Assembly: GCA_001770015.1 (NCBI GenBank)
Contig: MEQB01000011.1
Span: 62,001 to 126,000, forward strand
Direction: 5' to 3'
DNA length: 64,000 nucleotides
DNA from: Bdellovibrionales bacterium RIFOXYC1_FULL_37_79
GTDB lineage: Bacteria > Bdellovibrionota > Bacteriovoracia > Bacteriovoracales > Bacteriovoracaceae
A program made the position numbers and the translations under genes. Below the pieces are notes generated by a model. It made no database searches, was not told where the DNA came from, and worked only from the letters and a program-made list of their open reading frames with translations. Positions 23,280 to 64,000 of the stretch are shown one piece after another. Within the stretch, counting starts at the first letter, position 1; every line of letters begins with the position of its first letter.

Positions 23280-23418
23280 ATTGGCCTCTTTTTAAATTTT
23301 TTTATAAGAGTTTCAGATCTTATACCATTTGAAGTAAATTATGACTAAAAATTTTGGCCTTAAGTAAAAGTTTTTGATAGATTTACGAGTCGTTTGCGAT
23401 AAATCCTTGGAGAATTAT

Positions 23419-26400
23419 ATGGGCCAAATTGGTTATTACTACGGTGCAACAATCTGTAATGAAAAAATTGCTTTTGTTTCGGATAACGATTTATGGCTGA
23501 CAGATATCAATGGCGGAGTCGCTCATCGATTAACCTCTAATCAAGGAACGGTTACAACTCCCAACTTTTCTCCTGATGGCAATCATATCGCATATGTTGC
23601 CACCGATAGCGGTCAAAGTGATATGTATTTACTGTCGCTTTTTTCTGGAGAATGGAAGAGATTAACATTTTTAAATATTGGTTTTGGAAGAATCACTGGT
23701 TGGAAAAATAATGACGTGATTCTTTTTTATTCTACCCATGAAAGTATGGTAAGAGGACCTGGATATTTGTATGAACTTAATATCAAAACCAGTGATGTTA
23801 AAAAGATTGAAGTTGGCCCAGCCAATAGAATCTCGTTTGGAAATGATGGATTAATTGTTATAGGAAGAAATTGTAAAGATTCTATCTATTGGAAAAGATA
23901 TCAAGGCGGAACTGTTGGCGTTTTATGGGTTAAGGCCAACAAGGAAGTCAAATTTAAACGAATATTGAAAGACATCAGACATAATTTAACAGACCCAACA
24001 TTTATTAAAGGACGAATTTTCTTCATTTCAGATCATGAAGGTATCTCTAATGTTTATTCTGTAAAACCAGACGGAAGATCAATCAAACGACATACTCATC
24101 ATGACGAGTATTATGTGAGAGGTTTGAGTTCTGATGGCGAAAATATTGTTTATAGCTCCGGTCCGGATATCTATTATCATGATCTAGCAAAGGGAGAATC
24201 CATCAAGATCGAAATTACTATAAGCACTTCAGGTATTGAAAAAAATCCCCGCTATGTCTTGGTTAATGATTTTTTAGAAGATTATTCGATTAATTATGAT
24301 GGAAGTGAACTGGCATTTAGCAGTCGAGGAAGACTTTTTAAGATGCCTACATGGGTGGGAGCTCCTTTCGTTCTTGGTAGGACTGATGAAGTGAGATATA
24401 AGCTTCCGACCTGGCTTCATGATGGTAAGGGTTTGGTATGTTCAGTAACCAATGATGTGGGTGTGGATGAACTCAACTACGTTAAAGCGGAAGATCGGTC
24501 GATAAAAAGAATTGCATCGAAAATAGATTTTGGCAAAATAATGGAAATTGCTTCCTCACCGGAAGATAATTGGGTGGCCATAACCAATAATCGAAATGAA
24601 TTATGGTTGGTGCACGCAACTAGAAACATTACCCTTAGGGTTGATAAAAACGATACAGGAAGAATGAACAACCCTTCATGGTCGCCTGATGGAAATTGGT
24701 TAGCCTATACTTTTTTTGAAATACAATCCGGCAAGGTTCGCATTTGGGTTTATAATTTAAAAAGTAAAAAGAAACAAATATTACTGGAACCAGTTCGTTA
24801 TGATTACGATCCAGTTTTTTCACCGGATGGAAAATATCTATATTTTATAGGAATCAGGGAATTTGTTCCAAATTATAATGAAACTCATTTTGATTTGGGG
24901 TTCCCCTTTGCCTCACGTTTGTATGTAGTGTCGCTAACGAAGGAAGCTGAGAATCCTTTTTATAAAAATCTGATAATGATTGCAGAGGATGAAGAGGATG
25001 GTGGCAAAAATAAAAATAATAAAAAGAAGAAGGGTGAGAAAGATGAATTGATTGTTAAAATTGATTTTGATGGAATCGATAACCGGGTCTATGCATTTCC
25101 AGTGGATCATGGTGGATATAAAAAAATAGCAGCCGTGGATGGCAAGATTTTTTATCTCAAAAAAAGAATAGCTCCCATCATCAATCAGGAATGGCGCAGT
25201 AATGAATCCAACATGAGTTTATATCAATTCAGTTTCGATGAAATGAAAGAAGAGTTGTTTCATAAAAATGTTGAAGGTTTTGAAATTTCTTTTAATTATA
25301 AAAAAATGCTTCTGGATAGCGAAAAAAGACTGAGAGTGATTTCGGTTGACAGTAAACCTAAACCGGATACTGAGGGGTACAATAAAAAAGAAGGATGGGT
25401 CGATTTAGAAAGAGCTAAATTAAGAATTGATCCTGCTCTGGAATGGAAGCAGATGTACTCTGAAGCGTGGCTATTGCAAAAAGAACATTTTTGGACCAAG
25501 GATATGTCCAAAATAGAGTGGGATGATATTTATCATAAATACCGACCCTTCCTGGAGAGAGTGCATACTCGAAAAGAAATGAGTGATTTGTTATGGGAAA
25601 TGCAAGGTGAGCTTGGGACTAGTCACTGCTATGAATTTTTTGGAGATTATTATAAAAAACCGCCCTTTAATCCGGTGGCCAAATTGGGGGTTGGTTTAAA
25701 ATGGATCGCTAAAGAAAAAACCTTTGAAATAGTTACCATTCATAAAGGTGATTCATGGTTAAAAGACGGAGACTCACCACTAAATGGAATGGGAACAGCA
25801 CTTAAACCTAGAGATAAAATTCTAGAAGTGGATGGAATCGGATTTAAAACTAGTAATTGTATTCATCGCCTGCTGGAAAATAAGGCGGGAAGTAGTGTTA
25901 ACTTGCTGATTAAGAAAAACCAGAAAAAAAATGCCCAATACATTCATGTTCCAACATTAATGGGGGAAGAAAAACTTCGCTATCGTGAGTGGGTGGAAAA
26001 AAACAAACAGTATGTGCATGTAAAATCCAAAGGAAAGCTTGGATATGTTCATATTCCCGACATGGGAGCGAGAGGATATGCTGAATTTTATCGTCATTAT
26101 ATTACGGAATGTGGTTTTGATGGGTTAATTATTGATGTACGATTTAATGGTGGCGGACATGTATCTTGTCATTTACTTAAAATATTAGCTCAAAAAGTTT
26201 TAGGTTTTGATCAGTCCAGGTGGTCTGGCGTTGAAGCGTACCCTCACAACGTGGTTAACGGCCCGATGGTGGCAATAACCAATGAACAGGCGGGATCAGA
26301 TGGTGACATTTTCAGTCATTCTTTTAAAATGATGAGACTGGGAAAATTGATTGGTAAAAGGACGTGGGGTGGTGTTATTGGAATAGATGGGAAGTATATG

Positions 26401-26652
26401 CTAAAGGATGGAACCATAACCACTCAACCAGAATATTCATTTTGGTTTAAAGATGTAAAATGGGGTGTGGAAAATTATGGAACAGATCCGGATATTGAAG
26501 TAGAAATCACCCCGGAGGATTATAGGACAGGTCTTGATCCTCAATTGGATAGGGCCATTGAGGAGTGTCTTAAAGATTTAAAAAAGAATCCTCCTTTAAA
26601 ACCAGATTTAACGAAAGATAGGCCAAACTTGAGAGCACTTAAATTAAAATAA
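23419..26652 (+). CDS. tri: tricorn protease homologue
   Basis: Large self-compartmentalising serine protease that trims peptides, 1077 residues from the ATG at 23419. GGAG lies 6 bases ahead; an in-frame TTG 45 bases upstream lacks such a site. The N-terminal two-thirds are the six- and seven-bladed propellers, with repeated NFSPDGNHIAYV, PSWSPDGNWLAYT and PVFSPDGKYLYF strands. A Lys-rich insertion lies near residues 523-545. The C-terminus carries a PDZ domain and the catalytic core: Ser735-His736 (GTSHCYEF), Ser960-Asp961 (AGSDGDIF) and Glu1018 (GVENYGTDP), matching the archaeal Ser745/His746, Ser965/Asp966 and Glu1023. No signal peptide, so cytosolic. Confidence 0.93.
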   Translation: MGQIGYYYGATICNEKIAFVSDNDLWLTDINGGVAHRLTSNQGTVTTPNFSPDGNHIAYVATDSGQSDMYLLSLFSGEWKRLTFLNIGFGRITGWKNNDVILFYSTHESMVRGPGYLYELNIKTSDVKKIEVGPANRISFGNDGLIVIGRNCKDSIYWKRYQGGTVGVLWVKANKEVKFKRILKDIRHNLTDPTFIKGRIFFISDHEGISNVYSVKPDGRSIKRHTHHDEYYVRGLSSDGENIVYSSGPDIYYHDLAKGESIKIEITISTSGIEKNPRYVLVNDFLEDYSINYDGSELAFSSRGRLFKMPTWVGAPFVLGRTDEVRYKLPTWLHDGKGLVCSVTNDVGVDELNYVKAEDRSIKRIASKIDFGKIMEIASSPEDNWVAITNNRNELWLVHATRNITLRVDKNDTGRMNNPSWSPDGNWLAYTFFEIQSGKVRIWVYNLKSKKKQILLEPVRYDYDPVFSPDGKYLYFIGIREFVPNYNETHFDLGFPFASRLYVVSLTKEAENPFYKNLIMIAEDEEDGGKNKNNKKKKGEKDELIVKIDFDGIDNRVYAFPVDHGGYKKIAAVDGKIFYLKKRIAPIINQEWRSNESNMSLYQFSFDEMKEELFHKNVEGFEISFNYKKMLLDSEKRLRVISVDSKPKPDTEGYNKKEGWVDLERAKLRIDPALEWKQMYSEAWLLQKEHFWTKDMSKIEWDDIYHKYRPFLERVHTRKEMSDLLWEMQGELGTSHCYEFFGDYYKKPPFNPVAKLGVGLKWIAKEKTFEIVTIHKGDSWLKDGDSPLNGMGTALKPRDKILEVDGIGFKTSNCIHRLLENKAGSSVNLLIKKNQKKNAQYIHVPTLMGEEKLRYREWVEKNKQYVHVKSKGKLGYVHIPDMGARGYAEFYRHYITECGFDGLIIDVRFNGGGHVSCHLLKILAQKVLGFDQSRWSGVEAYPHNVVNGPMVAITNEQAGSDGDIFSHSFKMMRLGKLIGKRTWGGVIGIDGKYMLKDGTITTQPEYSFWFKDVKWGVENYGTDPDIEVEITPEDYRTGLDPQLDRAIEECLKDLKKNPPLKPDLTKDRPNLRALKLK

Positions 26653-30364: not shown

Positions 30365-31510
30365 ATGAAGAATTTTTTACGGTTAATGGTGATTTTGGTC
30401 GTTATATCTTTCGCCTTTCATTCTTACTCGGTTGACATGGTTGAGTTGACGGGTGGGGATTCTCCCAACGATAAAGGTGAGGCTGTCGATTTAAAATGGA
30501 CGTTGGATGAATCCATCAAGAAAGATTCTAAAAAGATTTTTGTTTTTAGAAAAGCCCAGGACGAATCTGAATTCAAGCAGGTAAAAGAACTTGATATTAC
30601 TGCTGATGCTTTCAATGATAAAAATGAAGTTAAAAACCATATCCCATATATGTATTATCTCGAGTTAAGGAGCGTTGACGGAAATGTGGTTTTTAAAACT
30701 AACGAATATGGGCCTTTTGTTTCTATTCCTCAATGGGTAAATACAGATAAAATTCCTACCTTTATTTTTTCTGTGGTGGCGATGATTGTTATTCTTATTT
30801 TTATTCGGATCGCAAAATCTGGAAGAAAATTATATGTTCGTCCACTCGCTGGTGTCCAGGCAATTGAAGATGCCGTAGGGCGGGCCACTGAAATGGGTAA
30901 GCCGATGATCTATTCGCCTGGTATTTCGGTTATAAGTGATATTGCCACTTTGGCATCCATTTCTATTCTGTCAAGAGTTTCTGAAATAGTTGCAGAATTT
31001 GGCTCCAGATTGATTGTTCCAAACTATGATCCGATCGTTTATTCAGTTACCGATGAAGTGGTGAAAGGTGCCTACGTCAAAGTTGGAAGGCCAGATGCTT
31101 ATAAGGCGGATGACGTTTATTTTTTAACTCAAAGGCAGTTTGCCTACGCTTCTGGAGTTTCCGGACTAATGGCAAGGGAAAAACCGGCGGCGAATTTTTT
31201 CCTCGGTTGGTTTATGGCAGAATCTTTAATTTTAGCCGAGGCTGGTTCTATGACCGGTGCGATTCAAATTGCCGGAACTGACTCCATCTCTCAAATTCCA
31301 TTTTTTATAGTGGCGTGTGACTATACTTTGATAGGTGAGGAGCTTTATGCAGCGGCAACCTTGATGGGAGAAGATACCAGATTGCTCGGAGGATTGAAAG
31401 GTCAGGATTATGTAAAATTGATTGCTATGATTCTTTTAATTGTCCTTTTTATACTTAAGCTTTGTGGAGTGCCAGGAATTGAATCGCTTCTCGTAGTAGG
31501 GGGTAATTAA
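30365..31510 (+). CDS. DUF6754-type membrane protein
   Basis: 381 residues. Signal peptide about 1-22, a fibronectin III-like extracytoplasmic domain (about 25-120, VDLKWTLDESIKKDSKKIFVFRKA and YYLELRSVDGNVVFKTNEYGPF), a membrane span (about 133-152), then a conserved soluble or peripheral domain with GRKLYVRPLAGVQAIEDAVGRATEMGKPMIYSPGI, a Gly/Ala-rich hydrophobic stretch (FFLGWFMAESLILAEAGSMTGAIQIAGTDSISQIPFFIVACDYTLIGEELYAAAT) and a final span (about 355-375). This matches the DUF6754 pattern as I recall it. No function is established for that family. Heads a six-gene operon. Confidence 0.7.
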   Translation: MKNFLRLMVILVVISFAFHSYSVDMVELTGGDSPNDKGEAVDLKWTLDESIKKDSKKIFVFRKAQDESEFKQVKELDITADAFNDKNEVKNHIPYMYYLELRSVDGNVVFKTNEYGPFVSIPQWVNTDKIPTFIFSVVAMIVILIFIRIAKSGRKLYVRPLAGVQAIEDAVGRATEMGKPMIYSPGISVISDIATLASISILSRVSEIVAEFGSRLIVPNYDPIVYSVTDEVVKGAYVKVGRPDAYKADDVYFLTQRQFAYASGVSGLMAREKPAANFFLGWFMAESLILAEAGSMTGAIQIAGTDSISQIPFFIVACDYTLIGEELYAAATLMGEDTRLLGGLKGQDYVKLIAMILLIVLFILKLCGVPGIESLLVVGGN

Positions 31511-32149
31511 ATGTTTTTTAAAAAAACGGTTCCTTTTATTTTAACGTTATCAGTAGGTATTTTTAGTTTTCTCTACTATTTTATGCCCCATGCTTTTATG
31601 CAGGATATGTGGGACAAGGCTTCTGATTGGGCCATTATTATTGGTGGTGGTGCCATGTTTGTGGGGGTTATCTCCATGGTCAGAGCGTATTATAAGCGAG
31701 CTACCAATAAACTGGATCCTAATCGTTACTATGCCGTAATCACCATTTTATGTTTTTTTGTCATGACGGTGGTGGGACTGGTGACAGGAATAAAGCCGGG
31801 CAGTTTGTTCAATGATATTTTTGTGGGAATTATGATTCCTTGTGAAGCAACGATGTTTTCATTATTGGCTTTTTATATTGCATCTGCGGCATTTAGAAGT
31901 TTTAGATTAAAAAGTTTTTCAGCAGGACTACTTCTTTTTTCTGCTATTATTTTAATGTTGGCACAAATTCCAACGGGAGAAAATATTTCACCAGCTATTC
32001 CTTGGTTAAAGGGATGGTTGCTTGATTATCCAAACGTTGCCGCCCAGAGGGCAATTTTGATAGGAATTGCCATTGGACAAGTGGCAACTGCATTAAAAAT
32101 TATTCTTGGAATTGATAAATCTATTTATGCCGGCGTTGGTGGAAAGTAA
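31511..32149 (+). CDS. six-span membrane protein of the DUF6754 cluster
   Basis: 212 residues beginning immediately after the previous stop, with GGGGG as its ribosome site. Six likely membrane segments: about 7-27, 41-60, 74-94, 105-128, 138-154 and 179-196. Gly-rich motifs (WAIIIGGGAMFVGVISM, RAILIGIAIGQVATALKIILG) suggest tight helix packing. Charged residues are few. No transporter signature recognised. Gene packing says it works with the DUF6754 protein. Confidence 0.75.
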   Translation: MFFKKTVPFILTLSVGIFSFLYYFMPHAFMQDMWDKASDWAIIIGGGAMFVGVISMVRAYYKRATNKLDPNRYYAVITILCFFVMTVVGLVTGIKPGSLFNDIFVGIMIPCEATMFSLLAFYIASAAFRSFRLKSFSAGLLLFSAIILMLAQIPTGENISPAIPWLKGWLLDYPNVAAQRAILIGIAIGQVATALKIILGIDKSIYAGVGGK

Positions 32150-32160
32150 AAGAGGTAAAT

Positions 32161-33021
32161 ATGTTGAATAGAAATAAATGGCTTGATTATTTATTAAATA
32201 TTGATCGAAGAGTTGTTTATGTGATTATTTTTCTAAGTATCGCATTACCGTTCTTTTTAAATCCAGTAGTTGATATACAACCTACTAAATGGGTCAGCGC
32301 TGTTTATAATGAGATGGAAGAGGCTGCAAGGACCAACAAACCAATTATTATTGGATTTGATTATGATCCATCTTCGCTAGCAGAACTTGATCCCATGGCC
32401 AAAGTTCTTTTACGTCATGCTTTTAGTAAAAATATTAAAGTTCTAGGCTTAAACTTTATAGCAAACGGGACGTCGCTTGCTGATATTACCATGGAGCAAG
32501 TAGCTAAGGAGTTTGGAAAAGAATACGGTAAAGACTATGTTTATTTGGGCTATCTACCGCAGTATGATTTGGTTTTGCTGAATTTTGGAGATAATTTTCG
32601 AAAGTCCTTTAGCAAAGAATTTAGAGGGCAGCCTATCGAAAACATTCCAATGCTTAGTAATATTCAAAACTACGATGATTTTCATATGGTTATTGATCTT
32701 TCTGGAACCAAGCTTCCTACAGCTTATATAATGTATGGAGTAACCAGGTATCATTTTAAATTTGTCACAGGATGTACAGCGGTTTCTGCCACTGAATATT
32801 ATCCTTATCTTCAATCAGGTCAGATGGTGGGGCTAATTACTGGTATGAAGGGAGCGGCTGAATATGAAGGGTTGGTTAAATCTAATCTGAATATACCGAC
32901 GGGTGATGCTATGAGAGGCATGGCTTCTCAAACATGGGGTCACTTGGTAATCATTATTTTTATTATAATTGGTAATATTCTTTATTTTGTACGTAAGAAA
33001 ATAACTGTTGAGAGCAAGTAG
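32161..33021 (+). CDS. membrane-anchored protein with extracytoplasmic domain, DUF6754 cluster
   Basis: 286 residues. One membrane segment near the N-terminus (about 17-34), one near the C-terminus (about 261-278), and about 220 residues between them that should lie on one side of the membrane. That domain contains an alpha/beta-looking pattern (KPIIIGFDYDPSSLAELDPMAKVLLRHAFSKNIKVLGLNFI, then YDLVLLNFGDN and FHMVIDLSGT), reminiscent of a Rossmann-like fold without a recognisable cofactor motif. AGAGG precedes the ATG. Confidence 0.7.
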   Translation: MLNRNKWLDYLLNIDRRVVYVIIFLSIALPFFLNPVVDIQPTKWVSAVYNEMEEAARTNKPIIIGFDYDPSSLAELDPMAKVLLRHAFSKNIKVLGLNFIANGTSLADITMEQVAKEFGKEYGKDYVYLGYLPQYDLVLLNFGDNFRKSFSKEFRGQPIENIPMLSNIQNYDDFHMVIDLSGTKLPTAYIMYGVTRYHFKFVTGCTAVSATEYYPYLQSGQMVGLITGMKGAAEYEGLVKSNLNIPTGDAMRGMASQTWGHLVIIIFIIIGNILYFVRKKITVESK

Positions 33022-33030
33022 AGGTAATTT

Positions 33031-33648
33031 ATGAGTCATGAGCCATGGGTTTGGGTAGCTGCTTTTTTTACAATTGCTATTTTTTCTTATCTTTGGAAAG
33101 AGAATCCTCTGTACCGATTTGCTGAACATGTGTTAGTGGGGATATCTGTTGGTTACTTAGTTTGCATTACTTGGGAGAACGTTTTACATCCTAAGCTGGT
33201 CGAACCAATTCTTAAAAATGGTGAATATGTTTTAATTATTCCTGGGATTATGGCCGCACTGATGCTGTTTAGATTTTCTCAAAAAATTGGATGGATCAGT
33301 TTTTGGCCCTTGGCTTTTTTAATTGGTTTTTCTGGTTATGCAATCCCTACCGTAATTGAAACCAATATGCTTACTCAAATTCAAGCAACGGTGAACACCC
33401 CACTTTCGGGTGGATGGTTTGAATTAGTGAGTGGTCTATTTATTATTTTAGGAACGCTCGCTTGCCTTGTGTATTTTTATTTTTCCTATCCTCATAAGGG
33501 AGTAGTCGGTAAAACTGCCCAATTTGGATCAATGCTTTTAATGGTAAGCTTTGGTGCCAGCTTCGGCTTCACGGTTATGGCCCGTATTTCCCTTTTAATT
33601 GGCCGGGTTCTCTTTCTTCTGCGAGACTGGCTTGGTGTGGTTAGTTAG
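33031..33648 (+). CDS. multi-span membrane protein of the DUF6754 cluster
   Basis: 205 residues with about six or seven membrane segments (about 6-22, 35-52, 65-82, 89-106, 131-150, 163-180, and a hydrophobic end). YLWKENPLYRFAEHVLVGISVGYLV near the N-terminus and a C-terminal VVGKTAQFGSMLLMVSFGASFGF stand out. AGAGG precedes the ATG. Unknown family. Confidence 0.72.
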   Translation: MSHEPWVWVAAFFTIAIFSYLWKENPLYRFAEHVLVGISVGYLVCITWENVLHPKLVEPILKNGEYVLIIPGIMAALMLFRFSQKIGWISFWPLAFLIGFSGYAIPTVIETNMLTQIQATVNTPLSGGWFELVSGLFIILGTLACLVYFYFSYPHKGVVGKTAQFGSMLLMVSFGASFGFTVMARISLLIGRVLFLLRDWLGVVS

Positions 33649-33655
33649 ATCTATT

Positions 33656-34063
33656 ATGAGAAAAATTGAATTTACGGTATATCCCCTCATGGCCTATCCC
33701 CTGAGGGGTTTTTTTTCCCTAGTGATGATTGTTTTATTCACGGCACTTTCTTATATTCTGGTTAAACATATTGTCATGCCTATTTTTACTTTTTTAATTA
33801 TCTGCATGCCCATAGTTAATTTTATTTTTCCATCTAAATATATCTTGGAAGATGAAGGTTTTAAAAAAATTCAACTCTTTCAGGAAAAAAAAATGGGATG
33901 GAATCAATTTGCATCTTATTTGGTGACGAACGACGGAGTTTTATTAATCAGTAAACTTGCTCGTAGGTATAACGAGTATATTTATATTTTTGATAAGCCA
34001 TATTTTATTGAAATTGAAGAATTGTTAAATGCTAAAGGGATTGTAAAATATGCAAACGGATAG
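33656..34063 (+). CDS. small two-span membrane protein of the DUF6754 cluster
   Basis: 135 residues from the ATG at 33656. The frame extends upstream to a TTG inside the previous gene, but the ATG just after that gene's stop is more natural. Two membrane segments (about 19-36 and 42-58) are followed by about 75 cytoplasmic residues with alternating strands (WNQFASYLVTNDGVLLISKLARRYNEYIYIF), possibly a bacterial PH-like fold. The ribosome site is weak, so translation may depend on the upstream gene. Confidence 0.6.
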   Translation: MRKIEFTVYPLMAYPLRGFFSLVMIVLFTALSYILVKHIVMPIFTFLIICMPIVNFIFPSKYILEDEGFKKIQLFQEKKMGWNQFASYLVTNDGVLLISKLARRYNEYIYIFDKPYFIEIEELLNAKGIVKYANG

Positions 34064-34337
34064 CATGGCTGAACTTGATCCTGAGAAAACTAAATTTTTG
34101 GACAAGATAGCTGATTTTATAATAAAGAAAGACCTGGGCGTTATTGCCATTATGTACATTGAAAGTATGAGACCACTTCATCGAATAAGCTCTAATTTAA
34201 TAACTTTTTTCGAACCCTTCTTGAACCTCGCAGTTTCTGGGGAAAATTTAAAAAATCTTAGAAGTTGCCTGGAGGAAGAAAAGTATATGGATTACCTGAT
34301 GGAGCGGATTGAAAAAGGCAAAGATGCTTTAAAATAA
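34050..34337 (+). CDS. small soluble helical protein ending the DUF6754 cluster
   Basis: 95 residues, overlapping the previous gene by 14 bases. AAAGGG lies 9 bases ahead of the ATG at 34050. No membrane segment. The sequence reads as several amphipathic helices (KFLDKIADFIIKKDLGVIAIMYIESMRPLHRI, then a Leu/Glu-rich end). The overlap indicates coupled synthesis with the membrane subunits. Confidence 0.65.
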   Translation: MQTDSMAELDPEKTKFLDKIADFIIKKDLGVIAIMYIESMRPLHRISSNLITFFEPFLNLAVSGENLKNLRSCLEEEKYMDYLMERIEKGKDALK

Positions 34338-34378: not shown

Positions 34379-35995
34379 CTAGTTGATCATCTCAAACAAA
34401 GCAGCCAGGTAAGCCTTTTGATATCCCTTATATTCATAAATAAAATCATCTCTGGTAATCGTATAAGGAATATTTGGTTCAGCTCCATGGTTTTCTACAG
34501 CCACACCATCGGGACGGTAAAATAAAGATTTGGTCATTTTAACTTTTATACCCGAATAGTTTAAATCTGGGACTTCGGAGACATGTCCTCCAGCTCCCAT
34601 CGTTCTTGTCCCAAATAATTTTGCTCTCCCGAAACCCTGCATCATCGATGGAAAAGCATCTCCACCGGAACCGGAGTTTTCATCAATTAACATGAGAATA
34701 GGTTTAGTGTATCTGGTTTTGGGATTTGGATAAACTAGATCATTGCTTGAGAAAGAAGTCATGCCAGTCATGAAATCACCTTTTTGCCAGGCATCTTTAA
34801 CAAGTTCTGCAATTTCTTTTATGTTTTGGCCATCTATTGTTGATGAATATTCGTTTGCAATTTTTAAATAAAATAAATAATTAACCTTATTGGCCCTGAA
34901 CTGAAATTGAAGTGGTTTAAATGGAGTATCTATAAATAAAGAAACGAGCGATTGTAGATAATCAACGCTCCCACCACAATTGTGATCTTGATCAATAACG
35001 AGTCCCACGGTATTTTTTTCTAATTCTCTTATGGCATATTCATATTGGGCAAAACGCAGCTCACCTTCCCATGTACCGGTGGTTTCATTTTGTGGATAGT
35101 AGTGAGGGATTCGAAGGTATCCGATATTTCCTTTTTCGGTAGGATGGTAATAGGCTACGAAGGGGGTCTTCATGATAATGGTGGCATCTTTGGGAATGGC
35201 TACTCTGGTTTTTCCGGAACAGAAATAAGTGACTTCTAATTGATCGTCATAAATGTTTTGCCAGATATCTTTAACCGAGAGCATGTCTAAATCGTGGTGT
35301 TTTGGACTAATAAGACCTTTGTTAGTAGAATCATATTCATCAATCGGTTCACCAGTGTAAATCCAAGGCAGTTCCACTTCTTCAATTATATTTGAAGTAC
35401 CTCTTCTTATTTTAAGTTTGGCTTTAGTATTGGGAAGCGGGACTGGCAGCAGGCTACCTGGTCTGATTGGAACATATATGGCTGACATTCTATCTCGATT
35501 TTCTTTTGTTCCTCCCGAAATATATTTTCCAATTTCATTCATTAATTCTCTAACGGGTTGGTCGTTTATGGATATTATTTCATCACCTTTTATAAAACTA
35601 AATGTATCTTTTGGAAGAAAATTTTCGTTGACCGAATCAATGAGTACCTTGCCATCAACTAAATCAGTGTAAAAACCTAAAGTGGCACGATGTGTGGTAG
35701 GCAAGTTGGCAGAGAAGTGACTATCTTGAAAACGGGCCACAAATTCAACAATAGTGTAGTAGAATTCACCATTGGTTTGGGTTTTTTCGATTTTTTCTTT
35801 AAATTCATTGACCACGTTATCAAATATTATTCCTTGAGTTTCTTTATATTGGAGCGGTCCATAGGATGCCTTCATGGTATTTACCAATTGGTAAAAATCA
35901 CTATATTTCTGTTCGAGTGTCAGTGAGTTAGCAAAGAGCGAATTGATACTGAAAAGGAAAATCAAAAGTGTAAATGTTCTCATCATGTTTGGCAT
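34379..35995 (-). CDS. secreted S41-family peptidase with PDZ domain
   Basis: 538 residues; the start may instead be the ATG at 35986, which sits better after GGGGGAG. Signal peptide about 4-23 (MRTFTLLIFLFSINSLFANS). The PDZ domain lies near residues 110-170 (KGDEIISINDQPVRELMNEI), and the tail-specific protease core carries LMLIDENSGSGGDAFPSMM, whose Ser-Gly-Gly-Asp region holds the nucleophile, and LFGTRTMGAGGHVSE following. The family cleaves C-terminal or unfolded segments of exported proteins. Lies convergent to the DUF6754 operon with only 41 bases between them. Confidence 0.82.
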   Translation of the reverse strand: MPNMMRTFTLLIFLFSINSLFANSLTLEQKYSDFYQLVNTMKASYGPLQYKETQGIIFDNVVNEFKEKIEKTQTNGEFYYTIVEFVARFQDSHFSANLPTTHRATLGFYTDLVDGKVLIDSVNENFLPKDTFSFIKGDEIISINDQPVRELMNEIGKYISGGTKENRDRMSAIYVPIRPGSLLPVPLPNTKAKLKIRRGTSNIIEEVELPWIYTGEPIDEYDSTNKGLISPKHHDLDMLSVKDIWQNIYDDQLEVTYFCSGKTRVAIPKDATIIMKTPFVAYYHPTEKGNIGYLRIPHYYPQNETTGTWEGELRFAQYEYAIRELEKNTVGLVIDQDHNCGGSVDYLQSLVSLFIDTPFKPLQFQFRANKVNYLFYLKIANEYSSTIDGQNIKEIAELVKDAWQKGDFMTGMTSFSSNDLVYPNPKTRYTKPILMLIDENSGSGGDAFPSMMQGFGRAKLFGTRTMGAGGHVSEVPDLNYSGIKVKMTKSLFYRPDGVAVENHGAEPNIPYTITRDDFIYEYKGYQKAYLAALFEMIN

Positions 35996-55806: not shown

Positions 55807-56937
55807 TTATTCTTCAATCAACTCAATATTTGCCCGTGGAATGGTGACTTCTTCGTTGTTTCCTTCAAATTTTACTTTTAAAACCCGAGCGTGAGTTTCA
55901 GATTCAATTTGCGTGAGAGCGGAAGGAAGATCAGTTACTGTTCCAATTCTTCCAAAGTATGGTTGTCGGATAACCCGTACTTGGTTGCCGATTGCAACGG
56001 GCTTGGCTTCGTGAACTTCTTTTTCGATACGGCTTAAATCAGCATCGTCGTAAGGAATAATTATTTCAGGGCGGATAACGCCTGCTCTGATTTGCGTGGC
56101 ACCAGAGATGGAGGCAATTGCACCTTCTCGGTCTTTTAAACAATTCCAGGTTCTTTGGGCCATTTGAATTTTTCCAAAGCCTTCGGTCAAAACGAGGGTT
56201 ACACCGACGTCTTCAGATCCGGTGATGGCAACCCCAAGGTCGTATCCGAGAATGGTTCTAAGATCTCCGTCTTTAATTCCACCAAGAATAATGCCTTTAA
56301 CACCAACTTGAATTGCTTTTTTGATAGCGGCAAAGTCAGCAAAAGCTCCACCAACAATGATGGCATCCTTGTATTCAGAAGTAATGTTTGCTTCTTCCAG
56401 TACGTCACCGGGAGATTTTACGGCAAATTTTAAAGTTCCCCAGGTTTCTCCGCCAATCCCAAAAATACCTTGTATAAAACTACAAACGGTCTCGACAACT
56501 ACACCTTCTTTGGGAACGACCTCTGTTACTTTACCATTGATGTAACCCTTTACTTGAACAGGAATAGGTGGTTCACGAAGAAGAACTTGTCCGGTTACGC
56601 TGGAGATGGATTCAATTTTTCCCTTGAGAGGGGCCTTTATCTGGGTGGAAAACCATTTGATAAAAGATTTGCTTTCAGCAATCAGTTCATCTTTTTCAAA
56701 GGAATCACCAACTTTTTTTAGCATATACTGGTCTATTTCCATTGCTTGAATTCCAAGCAGGTTGACTACGTTGATAGTGGAAACGTTACCAGGAAGATCG
56801 GTTTTGGCTACAATGCTGTCTCTTTGTACGAGATCACCAATTTTATTAACCACCTCACCTTTTAAGGGGAGGATGCGATCTTTAGCGATAACTGTTCTTT
56901 TTGCGACTCTAAGTCCTGGCGTATATGAGTGTCCCAT
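55807..56937 (-). CDS. KOW-domain partner of the MutL-like protein
   Basis: 376 residues. The N-terminal half contains two beta-barrel/lipoyl-like turns (ILPLKGEVVNKIGDLVQRDSIVAKTDLPG, then IKAPLKGKIESISSVTGQVLLREPPIPV). The middle has KDAIIVGGAFADFAAIKKAIQVGVKGIILGGIKDGDLR, and the C-terminus a KOW-type stretch (GNQVRVIRQPYFGRIGTVTDLPS). GGAGG precedes the ATG. Starts 16 bases after the MutL-like gene. I have seen this pair together in other anaerobe-like genomes, but its function is unknown to me. Confidence 0.65.
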   Translation of the reverse strand: MGHSYTPGLRVAKRTVIAKDRILPLKGEVVNKIGDLVQRDSIVAKTDLPGNVSTINVVNLLGIQAMEIDQYMLKKVGDSFEKDELIAESKSFIKWFSTQIKAPLKGKIESISSVTGQVLLREPPIPVQVKGYINGKVTEVVPKEGVVVETVCSFIQGIFGIGGETWGTLKFAVKSPGDVLEEANITSEYKDAIIVGGAFADFAAIKKAIQVGVKGIILGGIKDGDLRTILGYDLGVAITGSEDVGVTLVLTEGFGKIQMAQRTWNCLKDREGAIASISGATQIRAGVIRPEIIIPYDDADLSRIEKEVHEAKPVAIGNQVRVIRQPYFGRIGTVTDLPSALTQIESETHARVLKVKFEGNNEEVTIPRANIELIEE

Positions 56938-56953
56938 TTTTTCCTCCGCTTAA

Positions 56954-58750
56954 TTAATAAACTGGATAAAGATCCATTGCTTGATTCCATTTCTTGATTA
57001 TATTTTTTCTCTCTTGATCGTCTTCTGGGAATTCAATGGGTCTTCCACGTCCGTCGACAATCAATCCAACTACGCCACCTTGAACAGTTCCCTTGTAAGT
57101 TTTGCCTTTGCCGGCGCCTACATCAAAGTTTTTGGCGGGATTGAGTTCAACTTCGGCTGTCTCGCCTATGCCCAAGTGAAAATGTTTTAAATCGCCAAAG
57201 TGAAGATCCTCTTGAATGGTTTTTCCACCCATGGTGATTTTATAATCCATTATTTTTTGTCCAAACTTTTTAAGCTGTCCAGCAGGAGCAATACAAGTTC
57301 CAAGGTAGATCAGACAATCTTTTTGGAAAACTTCGGTGGCAATTTCCCCATCAATTTTGGCAAGAACACCCAGGTGAGGCATCATAAAGATGCTGTCCAC
57401 GGTAAGTGTGGTGATACCTTCTGGCAAGAATGCATCGATCATCATGGACATGGACTGATTTCTTCTTGGGGCGTGGGATAAAACACCACCAGAACCAACG
57501 ATCATATCAAGCTCGGTCATTTTAATAATTGATTGACCTGTTCCTTCTTGGCTGAAAACGTCTGCAATTGTTCTTGTCTGTTGAACCCCTTTGAGTCCTA
57601 CCGCCAGAAGTTTATGTTGATCAAAAGAAAGCCTAAGAGCCTCTCTTGAGATTGCTTGTTCAATTTTTAATTCTTCAAGGGATTGAGGAATGGTAGTAGG
57701 ACGAATCATTTTATTTTTGATCCGATCCCTGACTTCTTTTTCATCAATATCAAAGGAAAGCCAGCGCATGACATTTTTCAGTCCTGCGTCTGCCAGAACG
57801 TTGGATATGGAGTAACTCATCCCGTAGTTAGCTGAAACGGTACGGTTGAATGTTTCACCAATGACGGAAAAGACGTCAGTGGTAGCCCCACCGATATCAA
57901 CCCCAATAACGTTTATACTGTTAAGTCTGGCAATGGTCTGCATAATCTCACCAACTGCCGCCGGGGTGGGCATGATTTCAACACTGACCATCTCCATTAA
58001 TTTTTTATATCCGGGAGCTTGGGCCATGACGTGTTCCAAAAATAGATTTTGAATTTCAAGCCTGGCTGGCATTAAGTTTTCTTCTTCAAGGGTTGGTCTC
58101 AGGTTGTCGGTGATTGTCAGCGCCATCTTGTGATCTAAAATTTCTTTGACTTTTCCGCGAGCGTCTTTATTGCCGGCATAAAGGACGGGAAGTCGATAGC
58201 TCATCCCCAGCCTTGGTTTTGGATCAGCAGCACCGATATATTCCGCCAGTTCAACCACATGGGTAACTGTTCCGCCATCGGTTCCGCCAGATAGCAGAAT
58301 CATATCAGGACGTAGTTGTCTGATTCTTTCAATTTTTTGGTGAGGAAGTCTTTTGTCGTTGGATGCCAGAATATCCATAACAATCGCACCGGCACCGAGT
58401 GCCGCTCTTTGAGCACTTTCAGCGGTCATGGTTTTGATGGCACCGGCCACCATCATTTGCAGACCACCGCCCGCAGAACTGGTAGAAATATAAGCATCAA
58501 CCCCAACTTTGCCATTCACCGTAGTGATAATCTTGTCCCCGTCTAATATTTTTCGACCGGAGAGTTCTTCCACTTCCTGAATAGCGTTGAGTACCCCCTT
58601 GGTAACGTCTTCAAAGGGAGCTTCCACGGTGGTGGGCGCTTCTCCTCTAAACGTTTGGCGATATTCATTTCCTACTTTTTCAATAAGAATGGCCTTGGTG
58701 GTGGTACTGCCGCAGTCAGTTGCGATAATTGCTTGAATATCCTTGGACAT
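56954..58750 (-). CDS. glmL: MutL/GlmL-like actin-fold ATPase
   Basis: 598 residues of the glutamate mutase L family (ASKHA fold). Phosphate-1 loop IATDCGSTTTKAILIEK at the N-terminus, phosphate-2 loop INVIGVDIGGATTDVFSV (about 278-295), and LLSGGTDGGTVTHVVELAEY and VGSGGVLSHAPRRNQ as adenosine-side motifs. In Clostridium, MutL/GlmL is thought to reactivate B12-dependent glutamate mutase. No mutase subunits (GlmS/GlmE) are in the window, so it is an orphan here and may act on another target. GAGAGG precedes the ATG. Confidence 0.85.
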   Translation of the reverse strand: MSKDIQAIIATDCGSTTTKAILIEKVGNEYRQTFRGEAPTTVEAPFEDVTKGVLNAIQEVEELSGRKILDGDKIITTVNGKVGVDAYISTSSAGGGLQMMVAGAIKTMTAESAQRAALGAGAIVMDILASNDKRLPHQKIERIRQLRPDMILLSGGTDGGTVTHVVELAEYIGAADPKPRLGMSYRLPVLYAGNKDARGKVKEILDHKMALTITDNLRPTLEEENLMPARLEIQNLFLEHVMAQAPGYKKLMEMVSVEIMPTPAAVGEIMQTIARLNSINVIGVDIGGATTDVFSVIGETFNRTVSANYGMSYSISNVLADAGLKNVMRWLSFDIDEKEVRDRIKNKMIRPTTIPQSLEELKIEQAISREALRLSFDQHKLLAVGLKGVQQTRTIADVFSQEGTGQSIIKMTELDMIVGSGGVLSHAPRRNQSMSMMIDAFLPEGITTLTVDSIFMMPHLGVLAKIDGEIATEVFQKDCLIYLGTCIAPAGQLKKFGQKIMDYKITMGGKTIQEDLHFGDLKHFHLGIGETAEVELNPAKNFDVGAGKGKTYKGTVQGGVVGLIVDGRGRPIEFPEDDQERKNIIKKWNQAMDLYPVY

Positions 58751-61908: not shown

Positions 61909-64000
61909 TTACCGGTGTGTAATCGGAATATTAAAATAACTGGCGTCCTTATGATGGAAAACAATGGCCGATACGGATGCTTCCGGTTCCATCATAAGCG
62001 ATTCGGTTAAATTAACTTCAATGGCGGAAAGCGGATCCAGTAACCTGAAAAGAATCTTTTGATCTTCCAAATTAGGGCATGCCGGATAACCAAATGAATA
62101 GCGTTTCCCGTGGTATCTGGCCTGCAGACGATCTTTCATTTTCATATCAACCGGATCGGGATTACCCCAGGCGTTTCGGATATTGGCATGCAGGAGTTCG
62201 GCATAGGCTTCCGCAAGCTCGATCGCCAAAGCTGCGACAATGTGAGAATGCAAATAGTGACCTTGGTCTTTGAGGTGCTTGGTCAGTTCCTTGATGCCAA
62301 ACCCGACGGAAGTTACAAATATCGCCACATTATCAATAACCCCGCTTGCTTTGGGAATAACGTAATCACTCAGGCATAATCCATTTTCTTTTGGCTGTCT
62401 GGGAAGAATAAGGCTTTCTTGTATATTTTCATTTTGGTCTAAAAGGTGGATGGTGTTTCCCTCGCTATAGCATTTGAAAAATTGATAAACAGCTCTTGGA
62501 ATAAAGTGCGTGGTCTTATATTGCTCTTTAACTTTTAATACTTCCTCATAAATCTCCAGGGCCTTGAGTCCTTGAGGAGTCTTTTTTAATTCATTAAAAT
62601 TATTATTGCTTAAAAGCTCAACCTCCTCTTTGTGAACGCCGAGGTGTCTTTTATAGATCATAATGGGATTGATAAAATTAAAAATTTGATCAATGGGGGT
62701 ATTTTTTAAAATATGCTTGTCAAAATCGGGTGCGCTTGGGGCAACGGTTAGAACTTCCACTTCCTTTGATCTGGTTTGATCATTGGATAGGGTGCTCGAT
62801 TTGCTGTTTGGCCCGATATCCAAATTATTTTTTTCCTCATCAATTTTGTTAAGCAAGGTGGAAAATTCCTCTGGATTGATGATTTTATCAGCGAGAGCCA
62901 GTCCTTGCATGGCATCCTTGGCGTAAATGGCCCTGCCCTCACCATAAGCAGGGTCAATTTTATTTAAGACAAAATTCTTAGACAAAGCGGCTCCGCCCAC
63001 CAGGATAGGAATGTTAACTCCCGCCTCTTTTAAATCCCCGGCGGAGATTTCCATTTGTTGAGCTGATTTGACCAGCAATCCACTCAGTCCAATAATGTCC
63101 GGACGATGTTCTTTGGCCGCAGCGATAAGTTGTTCGGAGGTGATTTTGATTCCCATATTGATGACTTCATAGCCATTGTTGCTCAAAATGATATCCACCA
63201 GGTTTTTGCCAATATCGTGAACGTCGCCCTTGACGGTGGCGAGCAGGACTTTGCCTTTTTGTCTTTGTTGGGTTTTAGGCATGAATGGTTTTAAAAAATC
63301 AACCGCTGCCTTCATTACTTCAGCGGACTGTAACACTTCTGCCACGATCAATTTATTTTCGTTAAACAAAACTCCGACTTCTTTCATTCCGGCCATAAGT
63401 GGACCGTTAATGATATCAAGGGGACTCTGGGTTTTTAATAACTCGGTAAGATCACCGGTAAGTCCGGTTTTGGTGCCGTCTTTTATATATTGCGCAAGCC
63501 TTTGATCAAGTGGAAGGTCCGAGGTGTTTTTTTCGGTATCGACTTTTTTATCTCTAAAAAAAGCGGCAAATTGTCCAATGGGATCAGCTCCGATGTTGAA
63601 AAGTAGATTTTCTGATAAAGTAATTTCTTCCTTCGAAAGGGAATTAAATCTTTTCATACCTTGAGCGTTCACGATGGCGAGATCCAGTCCCGCTTTTACA
63701 CAGTGATAAAGAAAAACAGTATTTAAAACCTCGCGACCGGCCGGTGGAAGCCCGAAAGAAACATTGGAAATTCCAAGTACCGTTTTTGATCTGGGATATT
63801 TTTCTTTAATCAGGCGCACGCCTTCGATGGTTTCCTTGGCCGATCCAATATAATCGGCATTACCTGTGCCACAAGGAAAAACCAGTGGGTCAAAATATAA
63901 GTCGGTTTCTGAAATGCCGTATTTTTGGGTGAGCAGGTCATAGGATTTGGTGGCAATTTCCAGCTTTCTTTCCTTGGTAACGGCCATGCCCTGGATGGGG
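61909..64000 (-). CDS. metH: B12-dependent methionine synthase, C-terminal part (partial)
   Basis: Runs off the right edge; the frame stays open to 64000 and the Met at 63987 is internal. Methylates homocysteine to methionine using methylcobalamin. Visible domains in order: the end of the pterin (methyltetrahydrofolate) domain (KTVLGISNVSFGLP), the B12 cap (LIVAEVLQSAEVMKAAVDFLKPFM), the cobalamin domain with the lower ligand motif DVHDIGKNLV, and the AdoMet reactivation domain (LCLSDYVIPKASGVIDNVAIFVTSVG, RYHGKRYSFGYPACPNLEDQ). The cobalamin and reactivation motifs are intact. Confidence 0.92.
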   Translation of the reverse strand, partial: PIQGMAVTKERKLEIATKSYDLLTQKYGISETDLYFDPLVFPCGTGNADYIGSAKETIEGVRLIKEKYPRSKTVLGISNVSFGLPPAGREVLNTVFLYHCVKAGLDLAIVNAQGMKRFNSLSKEEITLSENLLFNIGADPIGQFAAFFRDKKVDTEKNTSDLPLDQRLAQYIKDGTKTGLTGDLTELLKTQSPLDIINGPLMAGMKEVGVLFNENKLIVAEVLQSAEVMKAAVDFLKPFMPKTQQRQKGKVLLATVKGDVHDIGKNLVDIILSNNGYEVINMGIKITSEQLIAAAKEHRPDIIGLSGLLVKSAQQMEISAGDLKEAGVNIPILVGGAALSKNFVLNKIDPAYGEGRAIYAKDAMQGLALADKIINPEEFSTLLNKIDEEKNNLDIGPNSKSSTLSNDQTRSKEVEVLTVAPSAPDFDKHILKNTPIDQIFNFINPIMIYKRHLGVHKEEVELLSNNNFNELKKTPQGLKALEIYEEVLKVKEQYKTTHFIPRAVYQFFKCYSEGNTIHLLDQNENIQESLILPRQPKENGLCLSDYVIPKASGVIDNVAIFVTSVGFGIKELTKHLKDQGHYLHSHIVAALAIELAEAYAELLHANIRNAWGNPDPVDMKMKDRLQARYHGKRYSFGYPACPNLEDQKILFRLLDPLSAIEVNLTESLMMEPEASVSAIVFHHKDASYFNIPITHR

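Follow-up and report, generated by a model that had tools for sequence, protein, structure and literature searches.

The six closely packed genes g1-g6, at positions 30365–34337 of the window (the whole 64,000-nucleotide stretch of DNA analyzed here), may form one cassette, cassette A, of a multi-subunit inner-membrane complex that is served by two further proteins, c0 and c2, and carries out ATP-driven work in the cell envelope. This is our preferred reading, and it is a tentative one. The anatomy of the system is well supported; what it does and what it acts on are inferred or unknown. Computation shows the genes, their linkage and co-occurrence, natural c0-c2 fusions, the domain architecture and the conservation of ATP-site motifs, whereas physical assembly of the parts, their topology (taken from the charge rule) and the coupling to ATP are all inferences. 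The full set would consist of g1-g4 as the membrane core, g5 and g6 as accessory proteins, and c0 and c2 as a cytosolic pair, a short and testable list of eight components. The first-pass annotation of the cluster left out c0, c2 and a second paralogous cassette.

Composition of the six-gene cluster

The cluster had been described as six tightly packed genes, and all six open reading frames (ORFs) were found, on the forward strand. The first gene, g1 (30365–31510), encodes a DUF6754 protein of 381 amino acids. It is followed by genes for a polytopic protein of 212 amino acids (g2, 31511–32149), a 286 amino acid protein with a Rossmann-like alpha/beta domain between two transmembrane (TM) segments (g3, 32161–33021), another polytopic protein of 205 amino acids (g4, 33031–33648), a small protein of 135 amino acids with two hydrophobic spans and a C-terminal domain (g5, 33656–34063), and a soluble helical protein of 95 amino acids (g6, 34050–34337). 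The successive gaps are 0, 11, 9 and 7 bp, followed by a 14-bp overlap between g5 and g6, and most of the starts have a purine-rich, ribosome-binding-like sequence just 5' of them. Read from the sequence, the likely start of g5 is the ATG at 33656 (the listed ORF opens with a TTG at 33599); g6 has a second possible ATG at 34065. The membrane make-up proposed earlier agrees with these assignments: g1 and g3 are anchored, g2 and g4 are multi-span, g5 has two spans and g6 is soluble (the last two by inspection).

Two protease genes accompany the cluster in the window. The next gene after g6, convergent with it, encodes an S41 protease (34379–35995, reverse strand) that scores 286 bits against the NCBIfam chlamydial CPAF model, above the cut-off of 250. 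At 23374–26652, on the forward strand, a Tricorn-like protease combines PD40 beta-propeller repeats with Tricorn C1, PDZ and S41 peptidase domains.

The designation of g1 as a DUF6754-type lead protein holds. It matches PF20539 with 347.9 bits (gathering threshold 27; E-value 3.5e-104) from model position 3 to 252, that is, over 250 of the 257 positions of a family without an assigned function. None of g2-g6 scores above a curated cut-off in Pfam or NCBIfam and, as the first-pass annotation had stated, no known transporter, secretion or respiratory motif is matched by g1-g6 in these databases; a known secretion, transport or respiratory complex was rejected as a candidate, there being no family matches. 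In the AF2 model of g1 (mean pLDDT 93), an N-terminal hydrophobic helix is followed by a fibronectin type III (FN3) domain, a TM segment, a six-stranded Rossmann-like domain and another TM segment. The N-terminus is signal-like, and both profile and fold evidence place the FN3 domain at approximately residues 26–120. This N-terminal part is common to g1 and other FN3 proteins, yet FN3 is a generic module; outside it, a fold search of the PDB gives no convincing solved relative. The g3 model (pLDDT 95.3) likewise has a six-stranded Rossmann-like domain flanked by TM segments, with no PDB fold match at an E-value of 1e-3 or less, and structure searches with g2, g3, g4 and g6 gave no convincing solved relatives.

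From the distribution of charge alone (lysine and arginine counts averaged over each family), the alpha/beta domain of g1 is predicted to be cytosolic and that of g3 periplasmic. By charge, g2 would have both its N- and C-termini inside, with about six TM segments. The topology of g4 includes six or seven TM segments, and its C-terminal segment, FGASFGYTVMARISLLIGR, is conserved in the alignment. The order of secondary structure elements is identical in g1 and g3, but a profile comparison is not significant, and we do not regard the two as detectable homologues; no homology was found between g2 and g4. Among the relatives of g1 there are DUF6754 proteins of 1160–1190 amino acids (L049:567-4049 and L097:1-3573) whose greatly extended N-terminal region has no Pfam match.

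Conservation and spread of the cassette

The gene-neighborhood check on the proposed cluster was run, and it bears out the linkage as more than a chance arrangement: g2, g3 and g4 follow downstream, on the same strand and in the same order, for 92 of the 105 g1 genes of relatives that have at least 2.6 kb of downstream sequence. Some lone g1 genes lack g2-g4. A scan of genome contigs finds at least 565 relatives. The best 80 of these come mainly from WOR-3, Zixibacteria, Fermentibacteria, Latescibacterota and Eisenbacteria, and also from Edwardsbacteria, Cloacimonadota, Coatesbacteria, Poribacteria and others. The cassette is spread over more than ten little-known bacterial phyla at least; because only the best 80 of at least 565 loci were used, this figure is a minimum, and close sequences are over-represented in it. 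The genomes are mostly metagenome-assembled and incomplete, and the ORFs are simple longest-ORF calls. That gene order and sequence are both conserved in over ten candidate phyla, usually with several paralogous copies, suggests an important role.

Within its own phylum the cassette is patchy, with DUF6754 above cut-off in six of 369 genomes. At nine loci from DUF6754 genomes of this phylum, the order g1-g2-g3-g4 is the same wherever the contig is long enough. Type A loci, like that in the window, carry g5 and g6 after g4, and type B loci carry them before g1 (one type B genome has a g5-g6 fusion). A second DUF6754 gene, elsewhere in the same genome as the window, marks a paralogous cassette. 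In relatives outside type A, g5 and g6 recur upstream of the core, not downstream as in the window. The g5 protein is weakly conserved; it has homologues at loci of both types, and in other phyla ones that precede c0. The g6 protein has the motif A-[IL]-x-x-[IL]-E-[ST]-x-x-P-L conserved in the alignment, and its gene lies beside c0 or g1 in several phyla. The six-gene extent first given to the cluster thus needs revision: the packing is real, but the system is larger, with c0 and c2 at 55807–58750, and it is g1-g4 that is invariant while g5 and g6 are mobile.

At many loci two or three cassettes stand in tandem. A tree built from 99 concatenated cassettes resolves the first, second and third positions in Zixibacteria into clades of their own; in the window's own phylum, types A and B are both monophyletic (support 1.0) and are sisters of one another (0.909). 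Clades that are specific to position and type suggest that these are old, specialized paralogous cassettes.

The c0 and c2 proteins and their association with the cassette

The two genes lie on the reverse strand. The product of c0 (56954–58750; 598 amino acids) is an ASKHA ATPase of the GlmL/MutL family, and that of c2 (55807–56937; 376 amino acids) is a soluble protein with one or more barrel-sandwich hybrid (BSH) domains and a KOW-like C-terminus. c0 matches PF13941 with 422.9 bits (threshold 27; E-value 1.9e-126) over positions 1–450 of 450. Its motif DCGSTTTK is invariant and GVDIGGATTD is conserved, and the ASKHA phosphate motifs are kept across 19 c0 sequences. The whole ASKHA domain is common to c0 and GlmL/MutL proteins (methylaspartate mutase accessory protein GlmL and ornithine degradation protein Or-4), from which c0 differs by a C-terminal extension of approximately 120 amino acids. 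However, c0 falls below all three NCBIfam cut-offs for the GlmL family (NF040745, 237 bits against 475; NF040744, 214 against 600; TIGR01319, 176 against 204), and the glutamate mutase E subunit (PF06368) was found in none of the ten genomes tested. For these two reasons we reject a role as glutamate mutase accessory protein; strictly speaking, c0 is not a GlmL.

c2 is very strongly conserved, with a mean column identity of 63% in its family and an E-value of 6.6e-176 against a profile built from its relatives. The family has weak similarity to the BSH domains of RnfC_N, NQRA_N and Biotin_lipoyl, the last seen, again weakly, in paralogs where c0 and c2 are fused. The matches of c2 and of these fusions to the N-terminal BSH domain of RnfC and NqrA are short and below or at cut-off (c2 against RnfC_N: 13.9 bits, cut-off 25.6, not met), and g1-g6 have no Rnf or Nqr family match (these proteins only, not genome-wide). 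The natural fusions (L045:95-2842, L132:5799-8693 and L133:4463-7366) are divergent paralogs of 916–967 amino acids that join a c0-like ASKHA domain to a c2-like BSH region; the one at L132 lies near a FemAB/GNAT gene. Because fusion proteins were included in the c2 model, it gives spurious matches within unfused c0 proteins.

Such similarities raise the question of whether the eight proteins could form an enzyme complex bound to the membrane, with catalysis in the Rossmann-like domains of g1 and g3, c0 as a GlmL-like reactivase or chaperone, and c2 as a BSH subunit resembling a cofactor or electron carrier. The many invariant polar residues of g1 and g3 would suit catalysis, GlmL/Or-4 is what c0 most resembles, the BSH region recalls NqrA, RnfC and lipoyl domains, and several lineages have gcvPA-gcvPB upstream of g5-g6-c0-c2. 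On the other hand, the E subunit is missing from all ten genomes tested, neither g1-g6 nor c2 belongs to a recognizable redox or biotin/lipoyl family above cut-off, and the gcvP adjacency is not universal. We consider an enzyme complex rather unlikely.

Are c0 and c2 partners of the membrane cassette at all? In the window the pair lies 22 kb downstream of g1-g6, on the opposite strand. In several lineages the genes are contiguous in the order g5-g6-c0-c2-g1-g2-g3-g4 (there, c0 has approximately 605 and c2 approximately 375 amino acids), and in a genome of the same family as that of the window (L019) g1-g4-g6 face c2-c0. Within the window's own phylum c2 occurs in five of 369 genomes, every one of them DUF6754-positive. 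MutL is above cut-off in six of the 369, namely the same five and one of the same genus, 85% complete, that has a fragment at a contig end; the completeness of the sixth DUF6754 genome is just 84%. When the phylum is restricted to its 235 genomes of at least 90% completeness, DUF6754, c0 (MutL) and c2 share a single set of five genomes. The chance of such a match is approximately 2e-10 if genomes are taken as independent, a figure that overstates their independence because all five share a family. In a wider sample, drawn from the loci, c2 is present in 19 of 20 DUF6754 genomes, mostly from other phyla (G372 is the one without it), and the c0 family (MutL) is present in 15 of 15 (five from the same phylum, ten from others), nearly always as a single copy.

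A skeptical reading would see two independent things, a membrane operon and a c0-c2 housekeeping pair, that share a distribution through common ancestry or a single co-transferred block. The distance and opposite strands in the window allow for it, as do the G+C content of c0 and c2 (43%, against 37% in the six-gene cluster and 36% in the window) and the fact that the genomes carrying both in this phylum all belong to one family. Yet contiguity in several lineages, near-universal co-occurrence in other phyla, and a contig (L045) that carries both a c0-c2 fusion and a lone g1, with glycosyltransferase and GNAT genes nearby, make independence very improbable. No constant neighbor qualifies as a fixed ninth partner, which we therefore rejected; the neighbors are lineage-specific only (a 2-hydroxyacid dehydrogenase/transketolase block, a MazG-like gene, a TonB-dependent receptor and a Wza-like SLBB protein).

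A possible ATP-driven envelope complex

It is tempting to propose how such a complex might work. The drive by ATP is inferred from conserved ATP-binding motifs and genetic links, without hydrolysis data. In this scheme g2 and g4 would make up the membrane-embedded part, and Rossmann-like domains would sit beside the membrane on both sides, that of g1 at the cytosolic face and that of g3 at the periplasmic face. c0 would bind and hydrolyze ATP, and c2 might act as a scaffold between c0 on one side and g6 and the cytosolic domain of g1 on the other. A conformational change could then travel via g1, g2 and g4 to the periplasmic domain of g3 and to the FN3 domain, and the outcome would be ATP-driven envelope work, e.g., a substrate (unknown) moved or handed over. 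DUF6754 is present in one to seven copies per genome, against usually one c0, so that any coupling would be shared among the cassettes.

Several points count against an ATP-driven complex. Physical interaction, ATP hydrolysis and transport all lack direct evidence, ASKHA proteins may act as chaperones or scaffolds and not as motors, the cassettes of a genome usually have a single c0 between them, c2 is missing from one DUF6754 genome (G372), and some g1 genes stand without g2-g4. The ASKHA proteins PilM, FtsA and MreB tie cytosolic assemblies to membrane partners. With this precedent, c0 might be an actin-like or PilM/FtsA-like protein that binds ATP without needing to hydrolyze it, and c0 and c2 would organize the cassettes into a static or signaling scaffold that positions envelope machinery. 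A single c0-c2 pair serving several cassettes would fit such a role. However, c0 belongs to the GlmL/MutL branch and not to that of PilM, FtsA or MreB, and g1-g4 have no MreCD or PilNOP family match; we regard a scaffold as unlikely, if well within reason. Both this and the enzyme alternative remain open.

As for the complex itself, both the linkage and the lack of a known match support the earlier proposal that such packing implies a defined membrane complex, and an undescribed one, with physical assembly still inferred; neither of the two findings that would have overturned it, unlinked genes in relatives or a characterized counterpart, was made. Nothing in our family, structure and PADLOC searches points to a characterized complex. 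An anti-phage defence system was rejected (no PADLOC match for any of the eight proteins). In the literature searched we found no mention of DUF6754, PF20539 or PF13941, and no description of g2-g4, c0 or c2 as partners of DUF6754. These genes might even represent a new class of machine, in which an ATPase of the ASKHA (actin/Hsp70) fold powers a membrane complex through a BSH adaptor, Rossmann-like domains lie at either face of the membrane, and a genome carries between one and seven paralogous cassettes. The class would be present in many uncultured diderm phyla; this broader claim is possible, and more doubtful. In either case, an orphan subfamily of ASKHA ATPases, annotated only as a glutamate mutase accessory, is now tied to a specific membrane complex.

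Two further observations concern the surroundings of c0. Close to it in the window, at 61909–63987 on the reverse strand, is a gene for a MetH-like protein with a pterin-binding domain, two B12-binding domains and an activation domain. In relatives, gcvPA and/or gcvPB lies just upstream of g5/g6-c0-c2 at L030, L035, L073, L076, L081, L090 and L122.
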